64,000 nucleotides of DNA from Fibrobacter sp. (GTDB lineage Bacteria; Fibrobacterota; Fibrobacteria; Fibrobacterales; Fibrobacteraceae), in contig JAKSIB010000005.1 in NCBI GenBank assembly GCA_024399065.1, forward strand, positions 62,001 through 126,000, in the 5' to 3' direction. Shown here piece by piece: positions 19,937-44,108 of the stretch. The translations under genes were made by a program, and so were the position numbers. Each line of letters starts with the position of its first letter. The first letter of the stretch is position 1. The notes under the pieces were generated by a model. It had not been told where the DNA came from. It saw nothing but the letters and a program-made list of their open reading frames with translations, and made no database searches.

Positions 19937-20896
19937 TTAAATTATATCATTAAACCTGTTATTACGGATTTCAGTAAACATATTAGTATCCGAATCTGTT
20001 TTTTTCAGGGTAACATTGAATCGAATCAAGAACCCGGATACCTTCTTGATGAACGGAACACCCGTTATATCTTCAGGCGCCACGACCACATTGAACTCTC
20101 GGCCATTACCGGCGTCAACCTTAACACATGTTCCCAGTACAAGATCTTCAGGGTACATTTCAACAGTCGTATCGATCACATTGTCGGTTGCGTCATACGA
20201 ACATTTACCACATGGCGTGACATTAAACTTGACATGGAGATTGCCATTTTCACCACCATTAGATCCATTATTGCCATCACCACGCAAGTCCAGCTTCAAT
20301 ACACCCGGCATGTAATTAATTGGTTTGACAACCGTCTTTGTAACACTGCCAGAACCATTACACACATCGCACTTTTCTTCCGTCTTGTATCCGGTGCCGT
20401 CACAACCGATGCATTTACGCTTACGGCCCTTAAAATGGATCATTCCATAGCCACCACAATGAGGGCAAACATGATGTATTTTGGCACCAGTACCGGCACA
20501 TTCTAGGCATTCACTATGGCGGGTGAATGTGATCGGCATTGCCGGCACCCCAGTCATAAACATGTCGACCGGCAAATTGACTGTCAAGTCAATATCCGTC
20601 CCATGCTTCATGTTTTTGGGTTTTATAGGTTTTTTGCCAAAGTTTTTGGCAACTTCCGGACGTCCAAAAACTGATGCCAGCATATCAAAGTCGGCTGCAA
20701 ACGCATTGGATTCGTCATATTTCCTACGATCCTCAGGCGTCTTGATAATTTTATAAGCCTCATTCAGCTTAACCATCATGGAATCATCCCCATTATTCTT
20801 GTCAGGATGATATTTTTTAGCCAATATTTTGTACTGTTTCGCTATTTCAGCATCGGTAGCCGTTGGGCTAACCCCAAGAATCTCGTAAACACTCAT
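19937..20896 (-). CDS. dnaJ: DnaJ-type co-chaperone (Hsp40)
   Basis: This 319-residue protein would stimulate the ATPase of host DnaK and help protein folding or virion assembly. It has a J-domain with HPD at residues 30-32, and a zinc-binding cysteine-rich region with four CxxCxGxG-like repeats (CLECAGTG, CPHCGGYG, CIGCDGTG, CDVCNGSG) at about 125-195. A substrate-binding beta domain follows. It is shorter than E. coli DnaJ (376), mainly because the Gly/Phe linker is nearly absent. The start codon is unusual: its first two bases are the last two bases of an IS605-type element (20895-22352), and only the G is native. Removing the element would still give an ATG, because the target ends in AT. 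Confidence 0.93.
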   Translation of the reverse strand: MSVYEILGVSPTATDAEIAKQYKILAKKYHPDKNNGDDSMMVKLNEAYKIIKTPEDRRKYDESNAFAADFDMLASVFGRPEVAKNFGKKPIKPKNMKHGTDIDLTVNLPVDMFMTGVPAMPITFTRHSECLECAGTGAKIHHVCPHCGGYGMIHFKGRKRKCIGCDGTGYKTEEKCDVCNGSGSVTKTVVKPINYMPGVLKLDLRGDGNNGSNGGENGNLHVKFNVTPCGKCSYDATDNVIDTTVEMYPEDLVLGTCVKVDAGNGREFNVVVAPEDITGVPFIKKVSGFLIRFNVTLKKTDSDTNMFTEIRNNRFNDII

Positions 20897-21000
20897 GAAC
20901 TACCCTCCCACTAAAGATGGGTGGGTTTCCCCGTGTCCATCTGTGGCATTACAAGCTTCCTGCTCAAGGTGTGCAACCACACCAGTGTCAACAGGCTTAA
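20895..21000 (-). ncRNA. Predicted TnpB guide RNA (reRNA/omega RNA) of element 1
   Basis: In this family the guide RNA comes from the right end of the element, overlapping the end of tnpB and reading into flanking DNA. The region ends in the conserved hairpin and GTAGTTCAT; the flank, and so the guide, would begin GAGTGTTTACGAG, the first codons of dnaJ. The 5' limit is approximate. Confidence 0.5.
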
Positions 21001-22147
21001 TGGTTCCATCCATTCCCTCAGTCCCTGAGGTATTTCCACTTAAACGTATGCGATTCCCTTCATTCAGTATGTTGATAGCTGCGTTCTGGTCTCTATCTAG
21101 CCAAGTGCCACAATTCGGGCAAGTCCACTCTCTATCAGATAGAGTCAGGGTGGTATTCTTGTAACCGCAGCAGTGGCATAGCTTGCTGGACGGATAGAAC
21201 GAACCTACCTTGACATAGTATCTACCGTGCCAGTAGGACTTGTAGGCAACCATATCACAGAACCTACCGAACGATGCATCGGCTATTGCCTTGGCTAACT
21301 TATGGTTCTTCAACATATTTGACGGCTTCAGGTCTTCAGAGTAGATGTATTGGTTCTCTACAACTAACTGCTTGCTGACCTTGTGCTGGAAATCAATTCT
21401 CTGGTTTCGTATCTTCTCGTGTACCAGAGCGACACGGTGCTTCTGCTTCCGATAGTTATTTGAGCCTTTGGTGCAATGTGACAGCTTACGCTGTTCCTTT
21501 GCTAACTTTTGCTCACTCTTTCGGAAATATTTTGGATTGTCAATGACGCATCCATCGCTGTCTATCAAGAAATCCTTGATGCCGAGGTCGAAACCAACCT
21601 CATTTTGATTAGGAGGCAGTTTCAGCCGTTCATCATCCATTTCTACTAGGATGGAACAGAAATACTTACCCGTAGTTGACTTGGATATCGTCAGGCTGCA
21701 TACTTTGGTTATGGGCAATGACGTGAAATCATAATCTTGCCTAAACTTAACCAATCCCGCCTTCGGTATGAATATCCTATCGTTTCGTACACCTCGGATT
21801 AGCTTACCTATGATTTTCGACATCATCGCATTACGATAAGATTGTCTATCACTCTTCTTCTTGAACTTTGGGTAGTTAGCCTTCTTGTCAAAGAATTTCT
21901 GATAGGCTTCCTTGGCATCCATATAGACGTTTGCCATACCTTGGCTGTCGGCTTCCCGCATCCAAGGCCACTCCTCCTTGAACGACGCCAACTTCGGTGT
22001 AAATGACATCCGAGTTTCCTCGTATATAGCTTGCTTCAAGGCAATGAACTGGTTGTATATGAAACGGCAAGTGCCGAAGGTTCTATTGAAGAACCTCTCC
22101 TGCCGTTTAGTTGGATACAACCTTATCTTGAATGCCTTGTTTATCAT
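20900..22147 (-). CDS. tnpB: TnpB, RNA-guided nuclease of IS200/IS605 family
   Basis: This 415-residue TnpB would cut DNA next to a short target-adjacent motif as directed by an RNA from the element's right end, helping the element persist. The RuvC catalytic residues look intact: Asp in GFDLGIKDFLID, Glu in YSEDLKPSNM and Asp in DRDQNAAINIL. A four-cysteine zinc finger (CHCCG...CPNCG) lies between the last two. The ATG at 22147 starts MINKAFKIRLYPT, the usual TnpB opening. The C-terminal 35 residues run into the right end, and the stop TAG lies in the terminal sequence. It is closely similar to the TnpB at 30944-32191. A predicted pseudoknot covers its leader. Confidence 0.95.
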   Translation of the reverse strand: MINKAFKIRLYPTKRQERFFNRTFGTCRFIYNQFIALKQAIYEETRMSFTPKLASFKEEWPWMREADSQGMANVYMDAKEAYQKFFDKKANYPKFKKKSDRQSYRNAMMSKIIGKLIRGVRNDRIFIPKAGLVKFRQDYDFTSLPITKVCSLTISKSTTGKYFCSILVEMDDERLKLPPNQNEVGFDLGIKDFLIDSDGCVIDNPKYFRKSEQKLAKEQRKLSHCTKGSNNYRKQKHRVALVHEKIRNQRIDFQHKVSKQLVVENQYIYSEDLKPSNMLKNHKLAKAIADASFGRFCDMVAYKSYWHGRYYVKVGSFYPSSKLCHCCGYKNTTLTLSDREWTCPNCGTWLDRDQNAAINILNEGNRIRLSGNTSGTEGMDGTIKPVDTGVVAHLEQEACNATDGHGETHPSLVGG

Positions 22148-22155
22148 ATACAAAA

Positions 22156-22241
22156 ATGGCCCATTGAGGACTAAACTGGCATTCAATTCCCCAACAGGCC
22201 ACAAAATTCTTGTTTCCGATAGGACAATAGAGAATGCCAGT
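22156..22241 (-). ncRNA. Predicted H-type pseudoknot leader of tnpB, copy 1
   Basis: On the minus strand, ACTGGCATTC (22241-22232) pairs with GAATGCCAGT (22184-22175). GTGGCCTGTTGGGG (22202-22189), inside that loop, pairs with CCTCAATGGGCCAT (22169-22156) downstream: 14 pairs, four of them G-U. The second strand of helix 2 ends nine bases before the tnpB ATG. TATAAACG lies about 20 bases upstream (22262-22269). Copies 2 and 3 keep the pairing with different bases. Confidence 0.7.
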
Positions 22242-22351
22242 AATCCATTGTTCTACCTATACGTTTATACATTGTAGAAAAATATTTCAGATATGGCAAG
22301 TCGGCTATCATCTCACGGGCTAAAGACCCGTAAGTTTTCTCGCCGACAAAT

Positions 22352-22359
22352 TATAAACT
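22352..22359 (+). promoter_or_regulatory. Late-promoter motif TATAAACT at element edge
   Basis: TATAAACT lies 25 bases before the 189-residue gene. The first T is the terminal base of element 1 and ATAAACT is native flank. Confidence 0.7.
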
Positions 22360-22384
22360 ACATCAAAAGAACATTGGGTGACTT

Positions 22385-22954
22385 ATGGCTAAGAATTCAA
22401 AAGGAATCACTGCAGCACAAAATATGAAAAACTGGGTTGATCTAACTGGGGTCGTCCAGAAAAAACACCAAAACAAGCTAAAAAATGGCAAATACCCACG
22501 TATGGGATTCCCGGAATGGAATTTCGACAGCGCCGTTGGCCACAGTCACCCTATGGGAACCGACGCTGGATCAGGAAACGGCGGATTTGCCGGCGGGGCA
22601 AGCCTTACCGCTGGATTTGCACCGTCAGCGGTAGCAACCAGTTCAGGCCCAGTCGCCGCAGCACCATGTGGCGAATCGATCGAACCGTCCGACTTCAACG
22701 CAATCCTTGAACATTTCAAGGCAGAAAATCCGACATCGGCCGTAGTCGATAAAATCAAAGATATGTTCAATGCGTCACAGGATGGAAATTTGACACCTCT
22801 TATCCATGATTCTGAAGGCGTCGATACTGTTGCAGACATGGAAAATCGACCAACGGACGACACCCAGACATCAGCGTTGGCAGCAGCATGTGAAGCTGTC
22901 TTATACGCATTCAAGGCATACACTGGAGTCGATTACTTCAATTACAGAAAATGA
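22385..22954 (+). CDS. Small Gly/Ala-rich protein, probable virion component
   Basis: This 189-residue protein is not recognised. It has a basic N-terminus, a Gly/Ala-rich low-complexity centre (about residues 58-95) and an acidic helical C-terminal half. A late-promoter motif stands before it. Its stop codon is TGA, of which the last two bases are given by the end of the neighbouring IS-derived element; exact removal of that element would give TAA at the same codon, so the protein is unchanged either way. Confidence 0.7.
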   Translation: MAKNSKGITAAQNMKNWVDLTGVVQKKHQNKLKNGKYPRMGFPEWNFDSAVGHSHPMGTDAGSGNGGFAGGASLTAGFAPSAVATSSGPVAAAPCGESIEPSDFNAILEHFKAENPTSAVVDKIKDMFNASQDGNLTPLIHDSEGVDTVADMENRPTDDTQTSALAAACEAVLYAFKAYTGVDYFNYRK

Positions 22955-23033
22955 ACTACCACCCACTAAAGATGGGTGGGTTTCCCCGAGCCCATCTGTG
23001 GCATTACAGGCTTCCTGCTCAAGGTGTGCAACC
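22951..23033 (-). ncRNA. Solo right end / predicted guide RNA without tnpB
   Basis: This 83-base segment is homologous to the guide-RNA region of elements 1 and 2, keeps hairpin CCCATCTTTAGTGGG, and has no tnpB next to it. A transcript reading leftward would carry the guide TTTCTGTAATTGAAG from the end of the 189-residue gene. It lies downstream of the terminator at 23110-23183, so its source of transcription is unclear. Confidence 0.5.
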
Positions 23034-23109
23034 TCAAGTCTCTGAACCATAACTTTCCGCAGTCTGCTGTGTGGCAAAGCCATACAGCAACAAGCTGCTG
23101 GCCCATATT

Positions 23110-23183
23110 AAAAAATCTGGTCCATTCTGAATAGGTTAAGTAGTCATAAGACCATCAAAACTCATTCATCAGAATAGGGCCAG
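23110..23183 (-). terminator. Terminator of the LRR cargo operon
   Basis: On the minus strand two arms (23183-23169, CTGGCCCTATTCTGA, and 23130-23117, TCAGAATGGACCAG) pair with one bulge and are followed by ATTTTTT. The loop is long (38 bases). Confidence 0.65.
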
Positions 23184-23210
23184 TTTGTATGAAATATTGT
23201 TTACAGCCGA

Positions 23211-23339
23211 TTACTCTAGATTGGGTCGGTCCGAAATCATATCCAATTGATTCCTGTCCGGTTCCTCACGCTTCTGTTTCATCTCAGCAATACGTTGCTT
23301 GAACTTGGCTATTACTCGCTCTTTCGTTTCTTGATTCAT
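23211..23339 (-). CDS. 42-residue charged protein, LRR cargo operon
   Basis: The product is strongly charged and helical (MNQETKERVIAKFKQRIAEM, then KQKREEPDRNQLDM). It starts 18 bases after the LRR gene's stop and has an excellent ribosome site (TAGGAG, seven bases before ATG), which is the main evidence. A terminator follows. Function unknown; it is part of the element's cargo. Confidence 0.65.
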   Translation of the reverse strand: MNQETKERVIAKFKQRIAEMKQKREEPDRNQLDMISDRPNLE

Positions 23340-23356
23340 GATGATTTCTCCTACAG

Positions 23357-24376
23357 TTATTTTTTCATATCTCCACCCCAATATACTGGGATTTGAGAAC
23401 GTTCAATCTTGGCCTGCTCTGATGCATACTCGCCTGTTTCTGGATTGTAGCCGCAATTAGTGAAACAGTCACTATAAGATCTAGCGACTACTGCATTATT
23501 GTAGAAATCAAGCATTCCGGCCTCGACAGATGTGCAGCCTCGAAACATAGTATTCATTTTCGTCACATTGGATGTATCAAGCCGTGGAATGCTTGTTAGA
23601 GATGTGCATCTATAAAACATAAAACTAGTATTCGTCACATTGGATGTATCAAGTTGTGGAATGCTTGTCAGAGATGTGCAGTCTCGAAACATATCATACA
23701 TAGTTGTCACATTGGATGTATCAAGCTGTGGAATGCTTGTCAGAGATGTGCAGCCCCAAAACATGTCTTCCATATCCGTCACATTGGATGTATCAAGCTG
23801 TGGAATACTTGTTAGAGATGTGCAGCCCCAAAACATACGAGTCATACTCGTCACATTGGATGTATCAAGTTGTGGAATGCTTGTCAGAGATGTGCAGTCT
23901 CGAAACATACCATACATACTCGTCACATTGGATGTATCAAGCTGTGGAATGCTTGTTAGTAATGTGCATCCTTGAAACATACTCTCCATATCCGCCACAC
24001 TGGATGTATCAGCAAACGCAAGGAATGAATATTCTATTCCAGTATATGTCCTATACCAGTCCTCGGTATCAAGAGTCACGTCCACCACAAGTGAAGGCTT
24101 GCTATTCTCAACAACAGATACCGACACCTGACTTTCTTCCAGTTCATATATTTCCGCCAAAATACTAGGCGTGGTAAGGGTCTCAACAGCGTCCTCGTAT
24201 GACATCTCAAGTTCATCCAGCATTTCCTCGGTAATCATATACTTTGCCCTATATGTCCTAGGCGGAAGAATAATCGGTTCTGGTCCGGGTGGAACGGGCG
24301 TAGGGGAAGGAGTGGGCTGGTATGCTTGGTTTTCTAACCACATAACGTAAGCCATATGCATCAATGTTGGAGCCAT
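23357..24376 (-). CDS. BspA-type leucine-rich repeat protein, element cargo
   Basis: This 339-residue protein has three parts: a short N-terminal region with a Pro-rich stretch (PTPSPTPVPPGPEP), a domain at about 40-140, and seven BspA-type repeats of 24 residues (LTSIPQLDTSNVTxMxxMFxxC). The repeats are nearly identical in DNA as 72-base tandem units, a sign of recent expansion. The end (NCGYNPETG, then IPxxWGG) is like that of the LRR gene at the start of the window. No clear signal peptide or membrane anchor is seen. The start has AGGA and a late-promoter motif 32 bases upstream. It lies inside IS605-type ends, so it appears to be carried by a mobile element. A role in host binding is inference. 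Confidence 0.85.
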   Translation of the reverse strand: MAPTLMHMAYVMWLENQAYQPTPSPTPVPPGPEPIILPPRTYRAKYMITEEMLDELEMSYEDAVETLTTPSILAEIYELEESQVSVSVVENSKPSLVVDVTLDTEDWYRTYTGIEYSFLAFADTSSVADMESMFQGCTLLTSIPQLDTSNVTSMYGMFRDCTSLTSIPQLDTSNVTSMTRMFWGCTSLTSIPQLDTSNVTDMEDMFWGCTSLTSIPQLDTSNVTTMYDMFRDCTSLTSIPQLDTSNVTNTSFMFYRCTSLTSIPRLDTSNVTKMNTMFRGCTSVEAGMLDFYNNAVVARSYSDCFTNCGYNPETGEYASEQAKIERSQIPVYWGGDMKK

Positions 24377-24408
24377 AATATCATCCTATTGCTTGACATC
24401 ATATAGAT

Positions 24409-24416
24409 AGTTTATA
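24409..24416 (-). promoter_or_regulatory. Late-promoter motif TATAAACT before LRR gene
   Basis: An exact TATAAACT lies 32 bases before the LRR start and inside the mobile element. Confidence 0.6.
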
Positions 24417-24526
24417 CGTTAGTCAACTAGATTGACCATACATTCAAATTTTCAGCAAGGATATAATCAGCATCAGTGAGTTTTCTTGCTACGACTATTA
24501 TAATGTATGATTGATTATCAACAAGA

Positions 24527-24547
24527 AACCCCCTCATTGAGGGGGTT
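24527..24547 (-). terminator. Terminator of the 2103-residue gene
   Basis: A 9-base-pair perfect stem (AACCCCCTC with GAGGGGGTT) with a 3-base loop lies 14 bases after the stop. Only a short T-run follows. Confidence 0.8.
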
Positions 24548-24560
24548 ATTTCATTGTGTT

Positions 24561-27500
24561 TTAATCGTCGTATTCAGAATTATATACGGGTTCTTTTTCC
24601 GTCTTGTTTATTTTTTTGGGTTTCGGTTCAGTTTGTTTAGGTTGCGATGATTTCATGGACTTCTGACGCTTTGCGGGTTGCTTACCAACGACAGTGGAAA
24701 CGTCATCAATATCCTCTGTATCCACAACGGAATTACGTGGTTCCGATCCAGCAGCATGTACTTCAATTTGATACTCTTCACCAGAATCATCAACAACAGT
24801 TACACTAGACTCATCCGAATCATCGGATTCCGGCGCTGATTCAGGATCATTTGTAGATACGGGTCTAACAACCGGATTACGCACCTTATTCGCACGGCCA
24901 GAAGATTTAGCTTTCTTGGCATTAGTCGGGGTGGTAGTCTTAACCGGCGTCGGAACCTCTTCTTCGTCATCATCCTCGTCACCGTCATCAGCGTTAACGT
25001 CATAATGGTCGTTCTTAAATTTCAGTTCATCAAACTTCACCTCGCCCTTACTAGCAAGCTCAGTAATATATTGATCAACTGCATCAGAAAGCACTGCAAC
25101 ATCATCACTAGGTACAGCAGCAATCACATGAGCAATGATGCCAACCATTAAATTGCCATAAATAACCCCAAAAGGATCTATAGATACCATCTGGCATTTC
25201 GGATATGCCTGAATCTTGCCATTATCCATCAATGCAGCGATCAACTTTTTAATCTTGCTATCGTCAACGTCAGGACGTTCAGACATGACGGCAATCTGCT
25301 TATTTATATCGATGCCGGTATCATATGCAACAATAACCATATTAAGGTAAGGAATAACCGTCGTAATGTTCGCATGTTCATTCAAATCACCGGCCGATTC
25401 AGCAAGTTTCAATGCTTCGGACACAAAGTTTCTAAATGTGCGTTCATCGTACGATTCATTGAACATAGTAACAACAAAATCAGAACTGCCCACGGAATTC
25501 CTAATGTACCCAACCGAAGCTAACTCACGCATGACATTCTCAAAACCGGCGTCAGTCATTGCATTGAATGCCGTCGGGCCAAGACGCATGTGTCCGATAC
25601 GCTTAACAGTTGCTTCAGACGGCTTGATCGATCCAATCGCAACCGAATTTCCACCATTACTAAAGGATTCGGTAAACTTGGTGTACAACAATTGTGCACG
25701 TTGACCCATCGTAGAATCCGAATCACCATTACTGTACAATTCCCTCAGCAAAGCAACAATTGTTTTATACTGGTCAGACTTTGTATCTCCAAAGAATCCA
25801 TGTGGCAAACCAGATTCAGTGTCCAACTCAGTCAAAGATTCAAATATAGCATACATTTGCTGGCCGATTTTAGTACTCAGCAACTCATCACTATTATCAG
25901 ATGACCCGAAATACAAACTAGCAAAATGGTCAGCCATGTCTAATGAAACGGCATCAGGAATAGAAGCCAACACACTACACACGGAATACGCCCATTCCAA
26001 ATCAATGGCATTAGCTCTGTCAGCGGTTCGTGTAGGAGTAATCTTATTCATCTGCACAAGCATACGTTCCATATCTGAATGGAAATTTTGGTCATTTTTA
26101 CCATGGTCAGACGCATACTGAATCATACGGGCACGATTTTTATCAATCATCACATGAGCGGCTGCTTTTTGACCGGCATGGGTACCAGCTGCCACAATGT
26201 ATGATATAGGCGTATCCAGATCAGCAACCAAACGCTTGATCGAATCATTAACTACTTCACGAGTTTCAGTTGTCTCACGGCTATTTTCAGTCACATCACT
26301 TGTCGAATACACGGCAGAAAGAACTTTTTGGCCAACTACACGGCGAAGACTCTTTACAACAGCAATGATATCATCTTTCGTTATGTCAGCCGGTTCATTA
26401 ACTTCATGCGACAATTTATCACCGCCAAGGAAACCCATGATCGTATTCAACGACATTTGTTCACCGGCAGATGCAGCATCAGCCATAGCAATAGTCTGCT
26501 GTCCGTCATCATTCTGCTGGATTTCAAAAACACGTCCATTTTTGACACGTTCCTTAGACCCACCCTTTGTTGCATCCGACCCATCAGTCTTGGAATAATT
26601 CTTTACGTATGGATAAACAGGCTGTCCATTCATTACAGTAGTAAGGAACGTCATTAACTGATTGTAATCAGAATCCCCATTACGTTCATCATCAATCAAC
26701 GCATTAATCGCTTCACGCTGTAAATCGTTATCAGCCATATTACCATATAGGATATCGTTTCTAGCCATATTCTTATAAATAGAAGCTTCGCTACGGTCTA
26801 AACGGGTATTAGCATTATAACGTTCATCTGTTATACTACGATCAAAGGTTCCTATCATCAAACCTACAGAATATGCAAAATCAGCCAATTCCGGATTCGA
26901 TTCCATTTCAGTAACCATATTATCGTAATATGATTCATGGGCATTAGCCACTGCACCGGTTGGAGCGTTACTATATTTTTTCACGCCACGGAAACGGGCA
27001 CGGGCAAAGGCATCTATTGCATTATCTTCACTGTCGTTAAAATCGCCATGTTTCTGAATACCGTTGACATTATTAACAAATCGACTTAACGTTTCCTTAG
27101 AATCGGGTGTCAACACTCCACCTAAATACGACAATACAGATACAGCCGATGAAGCCCATCCATAAGTATCATCCGAATAAGTTTCATCCGTTGTAGCTGA
27201 CTCCAATTTTTCAATTGCATAATCAGCGGCTGATATCGAAACTGGATTTCCACTATTCTTTTCGATAATACGCCTAATAGATTTCAATGAGCTCACCAAG
27301 TCCCTTACAGTATCCGCATACATATTGTATTTCGAGAAGATAAAGGTTCCGATCACTAAAATAATTTGTGCAACGGCAGTGTCATCAGACATAGTGAACG
27401 GTAACACTTTACCATTACGATTCAACTTCTTAATAATCATCGACGCAGTATCGATAGCCGCACAAGCTCGCTTTAAACTTTCACCAGAAACACGACTGCT

Positions 27501-30938: not shown

Positions 30939-31044
30939 ATGAACTACCCACCCACTAAAGATGGGTGGGTTTCCCCGTGCCCATCTGTGGAATTACAGGA
31001 TTCCTGCTCAAGGTATGCAACCACACCAGTGTCAACAGGCTTTA
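30939..31044 (-). ncRNA. Predicted TnpB guide RNA of element 2
   Basis: This is the right-end region homologous to that of element 1, overlapping the end of tnpB. The flank that would serve as guide begins AATCAGCCATGCTAAA. The 5' limit is approximate. Confidence 0.5.
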
Positions 31045-32191
31045 GCGATTCATCGCTTCCCTTAGTCCGTGAGGTATTTCGACTTAAACGAATGCGATTT
31101 CCTTCGTTCAGTATGTTGAGAGCTGCGTTCTGGTCTCTATCTAGCCAAGTACCACAATTCGGGCAAGACCACTCTCTATCAGCTAGAGTCAGCGTGGTGT
31201 TCTTGTAACCACAGCAGTGGCATAGCTTGCTGGAAGGATAGAACGAACCTACCTTGATGTAGTATCTACCGTACCAGAATGCCTTGTAAGCAACCATATT
31301 GCAGAACCGTCCAAATGACGCATCTGCAATAGCCTTGGCTAACTTGTGGTTCTTCAACATATTTGACGGCTTCAGGTCTTCGGAGTAGATGTATTGGTTC
31401 TCTACTATCAGTCTCTTGCTGACCTTGTGCTGGAAATCAATTCTCTGGTTTCTTATCTTTTCGTGTACCAGAGCGACACGATGCTTCTGCTTCCGATAGT
31501 TATGCGAGCCTTTGGTACAATGCGACAGCTTACGCTGTTCCTTTGCCAACTTTTGCTCACTCTTTCGGAAATACTTTGGATTTTCTATAACGCAACCATC
31601 GCTGTCTATAAGGAAATCCTTGATACCGAGATCAAAGCCTATCTCGTTATCATTCGGTGGCAGCTTCATCCGGTCATCATCCATTTCCACTAGGATGGAG
31701 CAGAAATACTTGCCTGTTGGGGACTTGGATATCGTCAAACTGCATACTTTGGCTATAGGCAATGACTTGAAATCATAGTCCTGTCGGAACTTGACCAATC
31801 CGGCCTTCGGAATGAATATGCGGTCATTCCTAACACCACGAATCAATGTTTCAATGGTCTTAGGCATCATTGCATTGCGGTAAGACTGCTTATCACATTT
31901 CTTCTTGAACTTCGGGTAACGTGATTTGCCATCAAAGAACTTCTGGTATGCACCCTTGGCATCCATATAGGCATTAGCCATTCCCTGACTGTCGGCTTCC
32001 CTCATCCAAGGCCATTCCTCCTTGAACGAGGCCAACTTAGGCGTAAATGATATACGAGACTCTTCAAAGATTGACTTCTTCAAGTCTATGAACTGGTTAT
32101 AGATGAAACGGCAAGTGCCGAAGGTCTTGTTGAAGAACTTCTCCTGTCTTACTGTCGGGTACAACCGTATCTTGAATGCCTTGTTTATCAT
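30944..32191 (-). CDS. tnpB: TnpB, RNA-guided nuclease, second copy
   Basis: This 415-residue TnpB is nearly the same as the one at 20900-22147, with scattered substitutions. RuvC residues are intact: Asp in GFDLGIKDFLID, Glu in YSEDLKPSNM, Asp in DRDQNAALNIL. The zinc finger CHCCG...CPNCG is intact. The stop TAG lies in the right end. The open frame without decay in both copies suggests the nuclease is still under selection or recently arrived. Its predicted pseudoknot leader has different bases but the same pairing as in element 1. Confidence 0.95.
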   Translation of the reverse strand: MINKAFKIRLYPTVRQEKFFNKTFGTCRFIYNQFIDLKKSIFEESRISFTPKLASFKEEWPWMREADSQGMANAYMDAKGAYQKFFDGKSRYPKFKKKCDKQSYRNAMMPKTIETLIRGVRNDRIFIPKAGLVKFRQDYDFKSLPIAKVCSLTISKSPTGKYFCSILVEMDDDRMKLPPNDNEIGFDLGIKDFLIDSDGCVIENPKYFRKSEQKLAKEQRKLSHCTKGSHNYRKQKHRVALVHEKIRNQRIDFQHKVSKRLIVENQYIYSEDLKPSNMLKNHKLAKAIADASFGRFCNMVAYKAFWYGRYYIKVGSFYPSSKLCHCCGYKNTTLTLADREWSCPNCGTWLDRDQNAALNILNEGNRIRLSRNTSRTKGSDESLKPVDTGVVAYLEQESCNSTDGHGETHPSLVGG

Positions 32192-32199
32192 ATACAGAA

Positions 32200-32282
32200 A
32201 TGGCTAGTAGCGGACTAATTTGGCGTTCATTCCACTACCAGCCATCAAAAACTCTTTGATTTCGTGGATTGGAGAACGCCAA
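32200..32282 (-). ncRNA. Predicted H-type pseudoknot leader of tnpB, copy 2
   Basis: On the minus strand, TTGGCGTTC (32282-32274) pairs with GAACGCCAA (32228-32220). ATGGCTGGTAGTGG (32245-32232) pairs with CCGCTACTAGCCAT (32213-32200): 14 pairs with two G-U. Compared with copy 1, bases change on both sides of the helices so pairing is kept. TATAAATT lies 19 bases upstream (32301-32308). Confidence 0.7.
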
Positions 32283-32308
32283 TTATCCTATCCACCATAT
32301 AATTTATA

Positions 32309-32467
32309 TTACTTATTTTGCGTTTTAGTTATGTTACCCTTGTCATCCACCATACATACACCCATCTTGGATTTTCTCATCATAGCAGCATCGATGCCAG
32401 TCATTCCATTCTTGGAAATCATTTCTTCAATGACCTTATCCGTGTCCAATTTCAATTGTTTATCCAT
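32309..32467 (-). CDS. Possible 52-residue protein inside element 2
   Basis: The open frame (MDKQLKLDTDKVIEEMISKN, then GMTGIDAAMMRKSKMGVCMV and DDKGNITKTQNK) looks like a real protein in composition, with a predicted helix and a small beta hairpin. The ribosome site is weak and element 1 lacks it. It may be cargo of the element or a remnant. Function unknown. Confidence 0.45.
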   Translation of the reverse strand: MDKQLKLDTDKVIEEMISKNGMTGIDAAMMRKSKMGVCMVDDKGNITKTQNK

Positions 32468-32564
32468 ACGACATACCACATTAAATATATCATTAAACTA
32501 TATTATTTTCATCCGCAATTCATCTCACGGGCTAAAGACCCGTGAGTTTTCTTGCTACATCTAT

Positions 32565-32572
32565 TATAAACT
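32565..32572 (+). promoter_or_regulatory. Late-promoter motif TATAAACT at element edge
   Basis: TATAAACT lies 26 bases before the 1067-residue gene. Its first T is the terminal base of element 2. Confidence 0.7.
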
Positions 32573-40880: not shown

Positions 40881-40990
40881 TTGACATACTCCCACGACTA
40901 AAGTCGTGGGATTCTGGGAGTTGCTACGGTGAGCAACATATCCCAAAGGTAGATGCCCCTACCTTACATAAGTTTCGAGCGGCATTCAGG
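40881..40990 (-). ncRNA. Predicted TnpB guide RNA of element 3
   Basis: The right end of the element overlaps the end of tnpB and closes with the terminal hairpin and TCAA. The flank that would serve as guide begins ATACACTGAGAAGTCC, the polymerase gene sequence. The 5' limit is approximate. Confidence 0.5.
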
Positions 40991-42027
40991 TCTCTATCGT
41001 GATGACATCCGCAAACGGGACAAGTCCATTCACGAATAGATACATCCTTTAATAGATGATTCTGATAACCACATTCACTACATAGCTGACTAGAAGGATA
41101 GTATTTATCGGCATACATAACGGTCTTACCAGTCTTGTGTGCCACATACTCCAGTATGTTCAAGAAAGTGTTGAACCCGAAGTCATACATCGACTTCTTG
41201 TACTTCTTGGACATATTAGCTAAGTCTAGCGTCTCGAATACCATCACATCGTAGTCACGGCACATTTGCCGTGCCAGCTTCCAGTGCATGTCCAAACGCT
41301 GATTAGCCACCTTCTCATATAGCTTCTGCAATGTACGCAGCGAACCTCGTTTTCCTTTAGACCTACGGTATTTCTCCGATAAGTTCCTTAAAGAATTGAG
41401 GTTTTTTCGCAGTAGCTTTGACATACTACAATCATCACCATTAGAGGAAACCAAGAAGTCATGTAGACTGAAGTCGAAACCAACGATTTCACCCGATTTA
41501 GTCCATTCTTCGTATACTACTTCTTGCTCTACGACAATGTATATGTAGAAGCCATTACTTTTACGCTTGACGGTCAAGGTCTTGACCTTGCCATTAAAAT
41601 CCCTACTATTCCAATAGGGAAAATCTTTTTTGCCTATCTTAACACGATTAAAATCATGAAACTTATATCCAGCTTGCTTGGTCGTGAACGACCTATACTT
41701 CGCAGTTTTCTGGAAATGCGGTGGATTAGTCTTCTTACCAGCCTTTAGATTGGCGAAGAACAACCGATATGCTCGGTCTATCCTGTCCGTGATGTCTTGA
41801 ATTGCTTGTGAAGGAACCTCATTCCACTCTGGATAGTGTTTCTTTGACTTCGTGAGATGTTTCTGCAACTGATACTTGTTCAACATCTTATGATAGATGC
41901 TATAGTACCTACGGTGCAGAGCAATGCAATGGTTATATATCCGACCAGCAATAACAAGTATGTTGTCGAGATACTTCAAGTCATCCCGATTGTACAGCTT
42001 GTACTTGTATGTCTTCAATTCAACCAT
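40924..42027 (-). CDS. tnpB: TnpB of element 3, distant from the other two
   Basis: This 367-residue TnpB belongs to a different branch from those of elements 1 and 2. RuvC residues: Asp in GFDFSLHDFL, Glu in VFETLDLANM, Asp in HDRDLNAARNL. The zinc finger is CSECG...CPVCG. ATG 42027 (MVELKTYKYKLYN) is preferred to TTG codons just upstream. No Shine-Dalgarno site is seen; the region is occupied by helix 2 of the predicted pseudoknot, and a TATAAACT motif lies upstream of that, so tnpB may be transcribed apart from tnpA. Confidence 0.92.
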   Translation of the reverse strand: MVELKTYKYKLYNRDDLKYLDNILVIAGRIYNHCIALHRRYYSIYHKMLNKYQLQKHLTKSKKHYPEWNEVPSQAIQDITDRIDRAYRLFFANLKAGKKTNPPHFQKTAKYRSFTTKQAGYKFHDFNRVKIGKKDFPYWNSRDFNGKVKTLTVKRKSNGFYIYIVVEQEVVYEEWTKSGEIVGFDFSLHDFLVSSNGDDCSMSKLLRKNLNSLRNLSEKYRRSKGKRGSLRTLQKLYEKVANQRLDMHWKLARQMCRDYDVMVFETLDLANMSKKYKKSMYDFGFNTFLNILEYVAHKTGKTVMYADKYYPSSQLCSECGYQNHLLKDVSIREWTCPVCGCHHDRDLNAARNLCKVGASTFGICCSP

Positions 42028-42038
42028 AGGCAACAAGA

Positions 42039-42590: not shown

Positions 42591-44108
42591 TCATCCCACG
42601 GCTAAAGCCGTGGGCTTTCGGTTCAGCGTAAGATTACCCATAGCCTGATCATAGGCTTCATATTCGATTTCGGTCATCGTCGGAATTCCAAGGAAATGCA
42701 GTTCACGATCAACCAGAGCCTTAACCTTATCAGTATATTCCATTGGAACCATGATAGAATCATGCACAGTGCAGAAATGGCAACCAATCTCGGACTTGAT
42801 CTTCGGGCAGATTACATTGAACACGAATACGCTTTCAGTCTTCTGCAGTTCATGGGCCAATGCCTTGTAATTGTTATGCTTGATAGCGTTGATACATTTA
42901 GTCAGTACAGGGAATTCAGTCTTCCAAACCTCTCGAATCAACCTGCGCATTTCCTTGGTATCGTTCGGGTTATATGCCTTACCAAACAGATACTCCATGA
43001 ACCCCTTCTTGGCTTCCTTTCTAGTAATTTCACGGCCGGCTACAGAGGACATCCCTTCAGCAAAAAACTCGTAGATCCTTCCATTAGACAGCAGATGTTC
43101 ATATTTCTGCAATTCATTGAACCAATCCCACATCACGGTATCATAGTTATAGTCATTCCAGAACGGGACCAAATTCACAAAGGTCAATGCTTCCAGATCA
43201 GATTCAGCGGTAAAATGGCCAGCCTTATTATAGCACAGATTCAGCAAACTATATAGACCTGCAGCCTGCGAAGACTTAATATCAACCTCGCCAATTCTAG
43301 ATCCATCACAACGCATAGACGCCAGACGAATCTCACGCTTCAAGCTGGTGACATTAGTATGAATTCGGCCATACTGGTCATGCTTGACATACAATGCATT
43401 CTCATCGGTCTTGGCATTATCAAATCGCTTCTTCTTCTGGCGTTCGATGTTTTCCTTATAGGAAGACATTCCTTTCTGTCGCAAAGACGCAATAGTATCG
43501 TCAAATGCCTTCTCATCTATAGTAAAATGTTCCAGTTCCTCATGACACATGGCCACAATAGGGTCGTTCATGTGTCTTTGCTTGATTTCACCCAAGAACT
43601 TACCCCATTTACGAATCAAACGAGGTGTCTTGATCTTAACTGCACGCATCTTGCCAATAACACGGGCAGACCCATCAACTTCCTTCTTGTTAATGCGGGA
43701 TTCGACAAAATCCTTGTAATAGCGAGCATATTCAGGTTTTAGCCAAATAGCCTTGCACAATCCCTTAGTATCGCATGAACTGACAACATACCCATTGCTT
43801 CTACCTATGAATCCAGCTGATTCGAGGAACTGCAGCACTTTGGTATAGTTATTACCTATAACATTCTTCAACACCACTGCAGAAACATTAACACACCAAT
43901 GAGCAAATGGAACCTTAGATCGGCTAACCCCTTCAGAAATCTTAATAACATCAAGTCGTTCCATCAATCCATGGGTCACTATAGCCAGTGTAATCACACA
44001 GGATTCATAAAATTCTGCTGAAATCTGCTCAAAATCGTAAAATTTACGCAAATCAGTAGATATCAGGTCAGGAAGAACAAACTTAAAAGTAGAAGCAGGG
44101 TCAGTCAT
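42591..44108 (-). CDS. Family-A-like polymerase palm protein, 3' end cut by IS605
   Basis: The 505-residue frame looks like a nucleic-acid polymerase of the family A DNA polymerase / single-subunit RNA polymerase fold. A winged-helix-like region (about 85-130, YTKVLQFLESAGFIG) precedes the palm. Motif A is GRIHTNVTSLKREIRLA followed by GEVDIKSSQAAGL (about residue 274). A motif-B-like helix is RKEAKKGFMEYLFGKAYN (about 360), and motif C is CTVHDSIMVP (about 449). No exonuclease domain is seen. The last ten residues (NRKPTALAVG) come from the left-end hairpin of the element; the native end is at 40802-40880. The catalytic core is before the insertion, so the shortened protein may still work. 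It is transcribed leftward from the divergent control region. Confidence 0.6.
   Translation of the reverse strand: MTDPASTFKFVLPDLISTDLRKFYDFEQISAEFYESCVITLAIVTHGLMERLDVIKISEGVSRSKVPFAHWCVNVSAVVLKNVIGNNYTKVLQFLESAGFIGRSNGYVVSSCDTKGLCKAIWLKPEYARYYKDFVESRINKKEVDGSARVIGKMRAVKIKTPRLIRKWGKFLGEIKQRHMNDPIVAMCHEELEHFTIDEKAFDDTIASLRQKGMSSYKENIERQKKKRFDNAKTDENALYVKHDQYGRIHTNVTSLKREIRLASMRCDGSRIGEVDIKSSQAAGLYSLLNLCYNKAGHFTAESDLEALTFVNLVPFWNDYNYDTVMWDWFNELQKYEHLLSNGRIYEFFAEGMSSVAGREITRKEAKKGFMEYLFGKAYNPNDTKEMRRLIREVWKTEFPVLTKCINAIKHNNYKALAHELQKTESVFVFNVICPKIKSEIGCHFCTVHDSIMVPMEYTDKVKALVDRELHFLGIPTMTEIEYEAYDQAMGNLTLNRKPTALAVG

Follow-up and report, generated by a model that had tools for sequence, protein, structure and literature searches.

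A TnpB-less right end beside an LRR gene in a large Fibrobacter phage: probable part of a composite, decaying IS200/IS605-type element

The solo right end at positions 22951-23033 (minus strand) is best read as one end of a composite, decaying IS200/IS605-type element that carries an LRR gene as cargo in a large bacteriophage, a reading to which we give a probability of about 70%. It is favoured because the left-end hairpin is broken, the 5' edge is chimeric and the flank departs from the pattern of its relatives, and because our searches found no promoter, target or relatives for it. The stretch of DNA analysed, here called the window (64,000 nucleotides), corresponds to bases 62001-126000 of contig C5, which comprises 164,362 bases in a genome bin of 3.82 Mb and carries phage genes for a UvsX-like recombinase, a DnaB-like helicase and a baseplate wedge. 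The bases C5:1-55 are identical to the 55 bases C31:42224-42278 at the end of a second contig, C31 (42,278 bases). Because of this identity at the contig ends, C5 and C31 are probably neighbours within one phage genome, and we treat them as a single phage of more than 200 kb.

The region 22931-23033 consists of exactly 20 nt of flank, the would-be guide (22931-22950, minus strand) that is read through the right end, and 83 nt common to the right ends of TnpB elements. The 83 nt finish with TTCAT and keep an 8-bp DNA hairpin, so that a right end with a subterminal hairpin, as is common to tnpB elements of the IS200/IS605 group (IS1341-type, tnpB-only), is present. The first-pass annotation had placed a guide-RNA-like end within these boundaries, which hold to the base, and it had rightly described that end as lacking TnpB: the ORF upstream on the minus strand encodes a DUF285/BspA-type LRR protein, with no tnpB attached. 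On the other side, the stop codon of a 189-aa gene (22385-22954, plus strand) overlaps the outer edge of the end. Three right-end copies make up a repeat family in the window (20904-20981, 22959-23036 and 30948-31025; 92-94% identical). A search of all 3.82 Mb of the bin with the solo end gives four further matches, three at E 2.5e-28 and the fourth at 4.9e-14; a fourth right-end copy lies at C5:55749-55835, and C31 has a shorter one. Among 50,697 phage records the solo end has no match.

Two TnpB elements lie in the window on the minus strand, element B at 20895-22352 (tnpB at 20900-22147, with the right end at 20895 and the left end extending to 22352) and element A at 30939-32565 (tnpB at 30944-32191). 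The earlier description of their genes as intact and nearly identical stands in its first part, both being open over their full length and encoding OrfB_IS605 and Cas12f1-like TNB domains, and fails in its second, since the proteins are 88% identical and the genes differ with dN 0.061 and dS 0.80. Fourfold sites differ unevenly along the genes: 37 of 87 do so upstream of the last 85 codons, and 2 of 16 within the last 30; this scarcity of changes at the gene end, compared with the many upstream, argues that the right end is constrained in the TnpB copies. A third copy of the element, C, is found at L009:531-1836 (C5:54530-55835) with both ends present and a broken tnpB, which consists of a 266-aa ORF followed by an internal deletion. 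The right ends of A, B, C and the solo copy are equally distant from one another, each pair agreeing at 79 of 85 positions.

How old, then, is the solo end? Over 84 aligned columns it has one private change, compared with one, two and two in A, B and C, despite the dS of 0.80 between A and B. An old neutral relic should differ more, and the solo copy would thus either have separated recently or have been kept under constraint, the data fitting both. We count this against a relic, together with the retained length, 83 nt lying inside the range of 79-466 nt reported for processed TnpB guide RNAs (PMC10278001), so that length is compatible with a guide RNA.

A partner for the solo end is found at 24476-24499 (minus strand), where 22 of 24 nt are as in the left end of element A. 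An HMM built from seven other left ends (A, B, C, the gene-less copy on C31, a second LRR locus called LRR2, the TnpB element of C31 and L016 from IMG/VR) matches 24503-24473 on the minus strand with E 1e-4, the best match outside the training set across C5 and C31 together (206 kb). Similarity to element A stops beyond ACTCAC, and the left-end hairpin is lost, with a DNA fold z of -0.47 compared with -5.03 for element A. The left-end sequence of an IS200/IS605 element is thus present and its subterminal hairpin gone; PATEs, which have near-terminal palindromes at both ends and no transposase gene, differ from this locus in retaining the left palindrome. Judged by its sequence, the unit around the LRR gene (LRR1) is a decayed derivative and not a complete IS200/IS605 element. 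Given the mechanism by which TnpA mobilises such elements, mobility by TnpA has probably gone with the left-end hairpin.

When the insert is removed on paper, the flanks join as TTAT-TTTCTGTAATTG, the predicted empty site, in which TTAT (24503-24500) stands directly beside the guide. The first-pass annotation had claimed a guide next to TTAT in the empty site, and with the partner left end found this is confirmed as a matter of geometry; likewise, the reRNA arrangement, in which the scaffold is followed by a guide matching the joined site beside the motif, is seen here in geometry only. This geometry is sound in that a guide of this kind follows from every IS200/IS605 right end, and what remains of the element retains it. 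IS200/IS605 elements insert after a fixed short motif without target duplication; here the motif itself fits less well. The would-be TAM of the joined site reads ATTAT (24500-24504, minus strand), whereas the base run before the left end is TTTAT in all eight related flanks compared (A, B, C, the C31 gene-less copy, the C31 TnpB element, LRR2, L016 and L013), and the supposed TAM match is not supported. In the joined flanks the 189-aa gene retains a stop codon, TAA for TGA, and a terminator-like hairpin (24527-24547, both strands) would come some 30 nt after it. Since the joined site keeps both the stop and the hairpin just beyond, it supports a single insertion between two convergent genes; we infer this event rather than observe it, because an empty-site relative was not found. 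The element that inserted after TTAT, in the short gap between these genes, would have been of the A/B type, either a TnpB element or a cargo derivative of it.

The interior now holds the DUF285/BspA-type LRR gene LRR1 (23357-24376, minus strand, 339 aa), a 42-aa ORF after it (23211-23339, minus strand) and the gutted remains of another, distinct TnpB element, X. The intact X gene (C5:19363-20730) encodes an open 456-aa TnpB that is 32% identical to A over 393 aligned positions. Two pieces of X-type sequence survive on the minus strand, one from the left part of the element (23114-23222; 89% identical over 71 nt to C5:20820-20750, plus 30-38 nt matching C5:20924-20895 and C5:164210-164247) and one of 48 nt from the 3' part of tnpB (23048-23095; 87.5% to C5:19577-19530). 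At 23030-23041 (minus strand) comes the fusion junction, where AGACTTGAGGTT, as in tnpB X, runs into the A/B-type right end at GGTT, implying that two TnpB 3' regions have been fused to form the 5' edge of the solo scaffold. The junction is observed; the event behind it would be a deletion that joined the X remnant to the A/B-type end and left the 83 nt. Besides A, B and the TnpA-linked TnpB, the phage carries X and one more distinct open TnpB, the latter at L028:4777-6000 (C31), and a further contig of the bin, C15, has four TnpB relatives with E values from 9.8e-27 to 1.0e-23 to X.

These nested remnants, which show several events at the locus, could also be taken to mean that the LRR gene is an old resident and that the two ends derive from different elements, brought together by coincidence. 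The three DUF285 paralogues of LRR1 in the same phage and the failure of the searches to find an empty site are consistent with this. Both ends nevertheless belong to one family and stand in the right order and orientation, and joining them puts the terminator-like hairpin just past the 189-aa gene, so that we regard coincidence as unlikely.

DUF285 gives 18 matches in the bin, in four ORFs all on C5 and C31, and two of the four, LRR1 and LRR2, sit behind this type of left end. LRR2 (L010:16470-17998; C5:142470-143998; 455 aa) directly follows an intact left end and retains about 200 bp of the left part of a TnpB element; a right end was not found there. The two loci were considered as copies of one LRR transposon, and this was rejected, their left-end junctions being different and the proteins only 44% identical over 294 positions. 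An LRR gene riding on a left/right-end unit movable by TnpA, with the right end kept as a transposase site and not as RNA, would account for these two of the four DUF285 ORFs and for the kept right-end DNA hairpin, and a TnpA (Y1_Tnp) is encoded on the same contig at 42149-42547 (minus strand), the only Y1_Tnp found in the bin. That TnpA belongs to another type of element, however, with a third TnpB adjoining it at 40924-42036; LRR1 is without the left-end hairpin and LRR2 without the right end, and the two join the left end at different points. We consider such a transposon improbable. Elsewhere on the contig, the left-end region of the TnpA/TnpB element recurs as a lone copy, C5:57976-58016 matching window 42591-42631 over 41 bases with 97.6% identity.

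In A, B, C and L013 the conserved stretch opens with a 6-bp stem (GGTGTG-CACACC and variants), which L013 retains with two two-sided changes, a weak signal from five sequences. Covariation in these five is correspondingly weak, affecting 2 of 19 pairs, a level reached by 65 of 500 shuffles; L016, which has a stem deletion and tnpB in two frames, and the gene-less copy on C31 were left out of this pair count. The 3' helices are intact in all five. In the solo copy the fusion junction stands where the putative guide RNA would have the left arm of its 5' stem, and the 5' helix is partly unpaired. A shifted stem forms at the break, and selection for it was considered and rejected, 1050 of 5000 random phage 20-mers folding as stably. 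The scaffold had been thought kept; its completeness is not supported, the left arm having been lost at the fusion with the TnpB remnant, and the 5' part of the solo scaffold must be regarded as doubtful. A search of Rfam over 20700-24700 gave no match, and RNAalifold on seven ends gave no clear structure.

Transcription, a target for the guide and retention of the insertion by cutting, all parts of the earlier proposal, found no support either. The region 22300-24700 contains 5 promoter-like sites where 5.1 are expected, which is chance level, and between LRR1 and the solo end the minus strand carries an inverted repeat followed by six T (fold z -2.35), which is part of the left-hand X remnant. 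With TTAT plus 14 nt of guide and up to two mismatches, the sole match in the whole bin is the locus itself, with TCAT, and the empty-site 21-mer has no match in IMG/VR. Its one match in GTDB genome contigs, on a Crocinitomicaceae MAG contig, was rejected as an empty site and taken as chance, since that contig has in common with 22201-24700 only the short matched stretch and one 28-nt match at E 0.71. Searches for empty-site relatives through the neighbouring genes were equally negative: for the 189-aa gene none of 26 pattern stretches in IMG/VR was confirmed, and the 111 genomes of the family, like the 113 of the order, gave besides the bin one weak, distant match (28% identity, E 2.5e-4); for the 2112-aa neighbour none of seven stretches was confirmed. 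For relatives of the LRR protein none of five was.

Could the solo end nevertheless be a working guide RNA, transcribed, loaded in trans by TnpB A or B and directed against genomes without the LRR insertion, so that the cargo would be copied or retained? The same end family supplies two intact TnpBs, the joined flanks give TTAT followed by the guide, and the end shows little private change against a dS of 0.80. In the reports concerned, spread of insertion sequences driven by TnpB against plasmids that lack them has been described (PMC11870625), and one archaeal TnpB tolerates a weak TAM (PMC11043419). Set against this are the lost 5' stem arm, ATTAT in place of TTTAT, promoters at chance level, the inverted repeat and T-run upstream, and a target found neither in the bin nor in IMG/VR, and we think a working guide RNA distinctly unlikely. 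More doubtful still is a nuclease-free homing element acting in trans, in which an A/B-type guide end, once fused with a tnpB remnant of foreign origin, would have given the phage cargo a solo guide RNA with which to borrow its neighbours' TnpB and cut co-infecting genomes that lack the cargo. With TnpA and intact TnpBs present in the phage, the idea of action in trans is open to experiment. We think that the solo end is more likely a by-product of a decaying composite element than a kept device; its end family includes other partial elements, namely the gene-less copy on C31, LRR2 without a right end and the tnpB with an internal deletion.

In ISDra2 TnpB, too, the guide RNA joins the right end to some 16 nt of flank, with its target beside the left-flank motif (PMC8612924, PMC10097598). 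Its bound scaffold, however, is 116 nt long, with four stems and a pseudoknot whose pairing partner is some 100 nt away from the guide (PMC10097598), whereas the solo end is 83 nt long, with its 5' stem broken, and lacks a protein of its own. The gene drive reported for TnpB of IS200/605 elements in plasmids (PMC11870625) has the benefit that the first-pass annotation proposes here, the cutting of insertion-free copies; there the element carries the nuclease, and here it would come from another element. Some IS605-type elements of Haloquadratum lose their core and carry nested elements (PMC3119063), and as in these PATEs and core-deleted forms, where nesting is frequent, TnpB-element ends have here outlasted tnpB. 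The solo locus, by contrast, has lost the hairpin of one end and holds an LRR gene between its ends; the neat gene-less example is that on C31, outside the window. Among the titles and abstract openings listed by the open-access literature searches, none reports phage right ends that lack TnpB and guide it in trans.

Trans-acting guide RNA loci are familiar from IscB systems, where, as at the solo end, they have no adjacent nuclease gene. Those systems use IscB and not TnpB, and they have many such loci in place of one eroded end. Were the solo end to work, any gene could gain RNA-guided retention by capturing a 100-nt TnpB end, and accessory genes of phages could ride on the nuclease of another element. 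If it does not, the locus clearly illustrates how TnpB ends survive the loss of their tnpB, undergo recombination with other TnpB genes and lead a search for guide RNAs astray.

Searches for relatives of the TnpBs gave four loci in IMG/VR; in GTDB contigs none of 109 stretches was confirmed, and among the 167 genomes of the phylum only the bin itself appeared at E<=1e-80. Matches to TnpB in phage records number 397, all below 60% identity; the 3' ends of 11 of these were inspected, were by eye too different to align and enter no count. The gene-less element on C31, of about 265 bp (L012:9655-9922; C31:33651-33920), lies between two phage genes with a left-end hairpin and a right end of the same family, and from its sequence it is a PATE-like derivative. 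The left end of the C31 TnpB element carries an extra right-end-like stretch (C31:24107-24078). In element A an ORF of about 52 aa lies between the left end and tnpB (window 32309-32467, minus strand), and it is present also in the left parts of C and LRR2.
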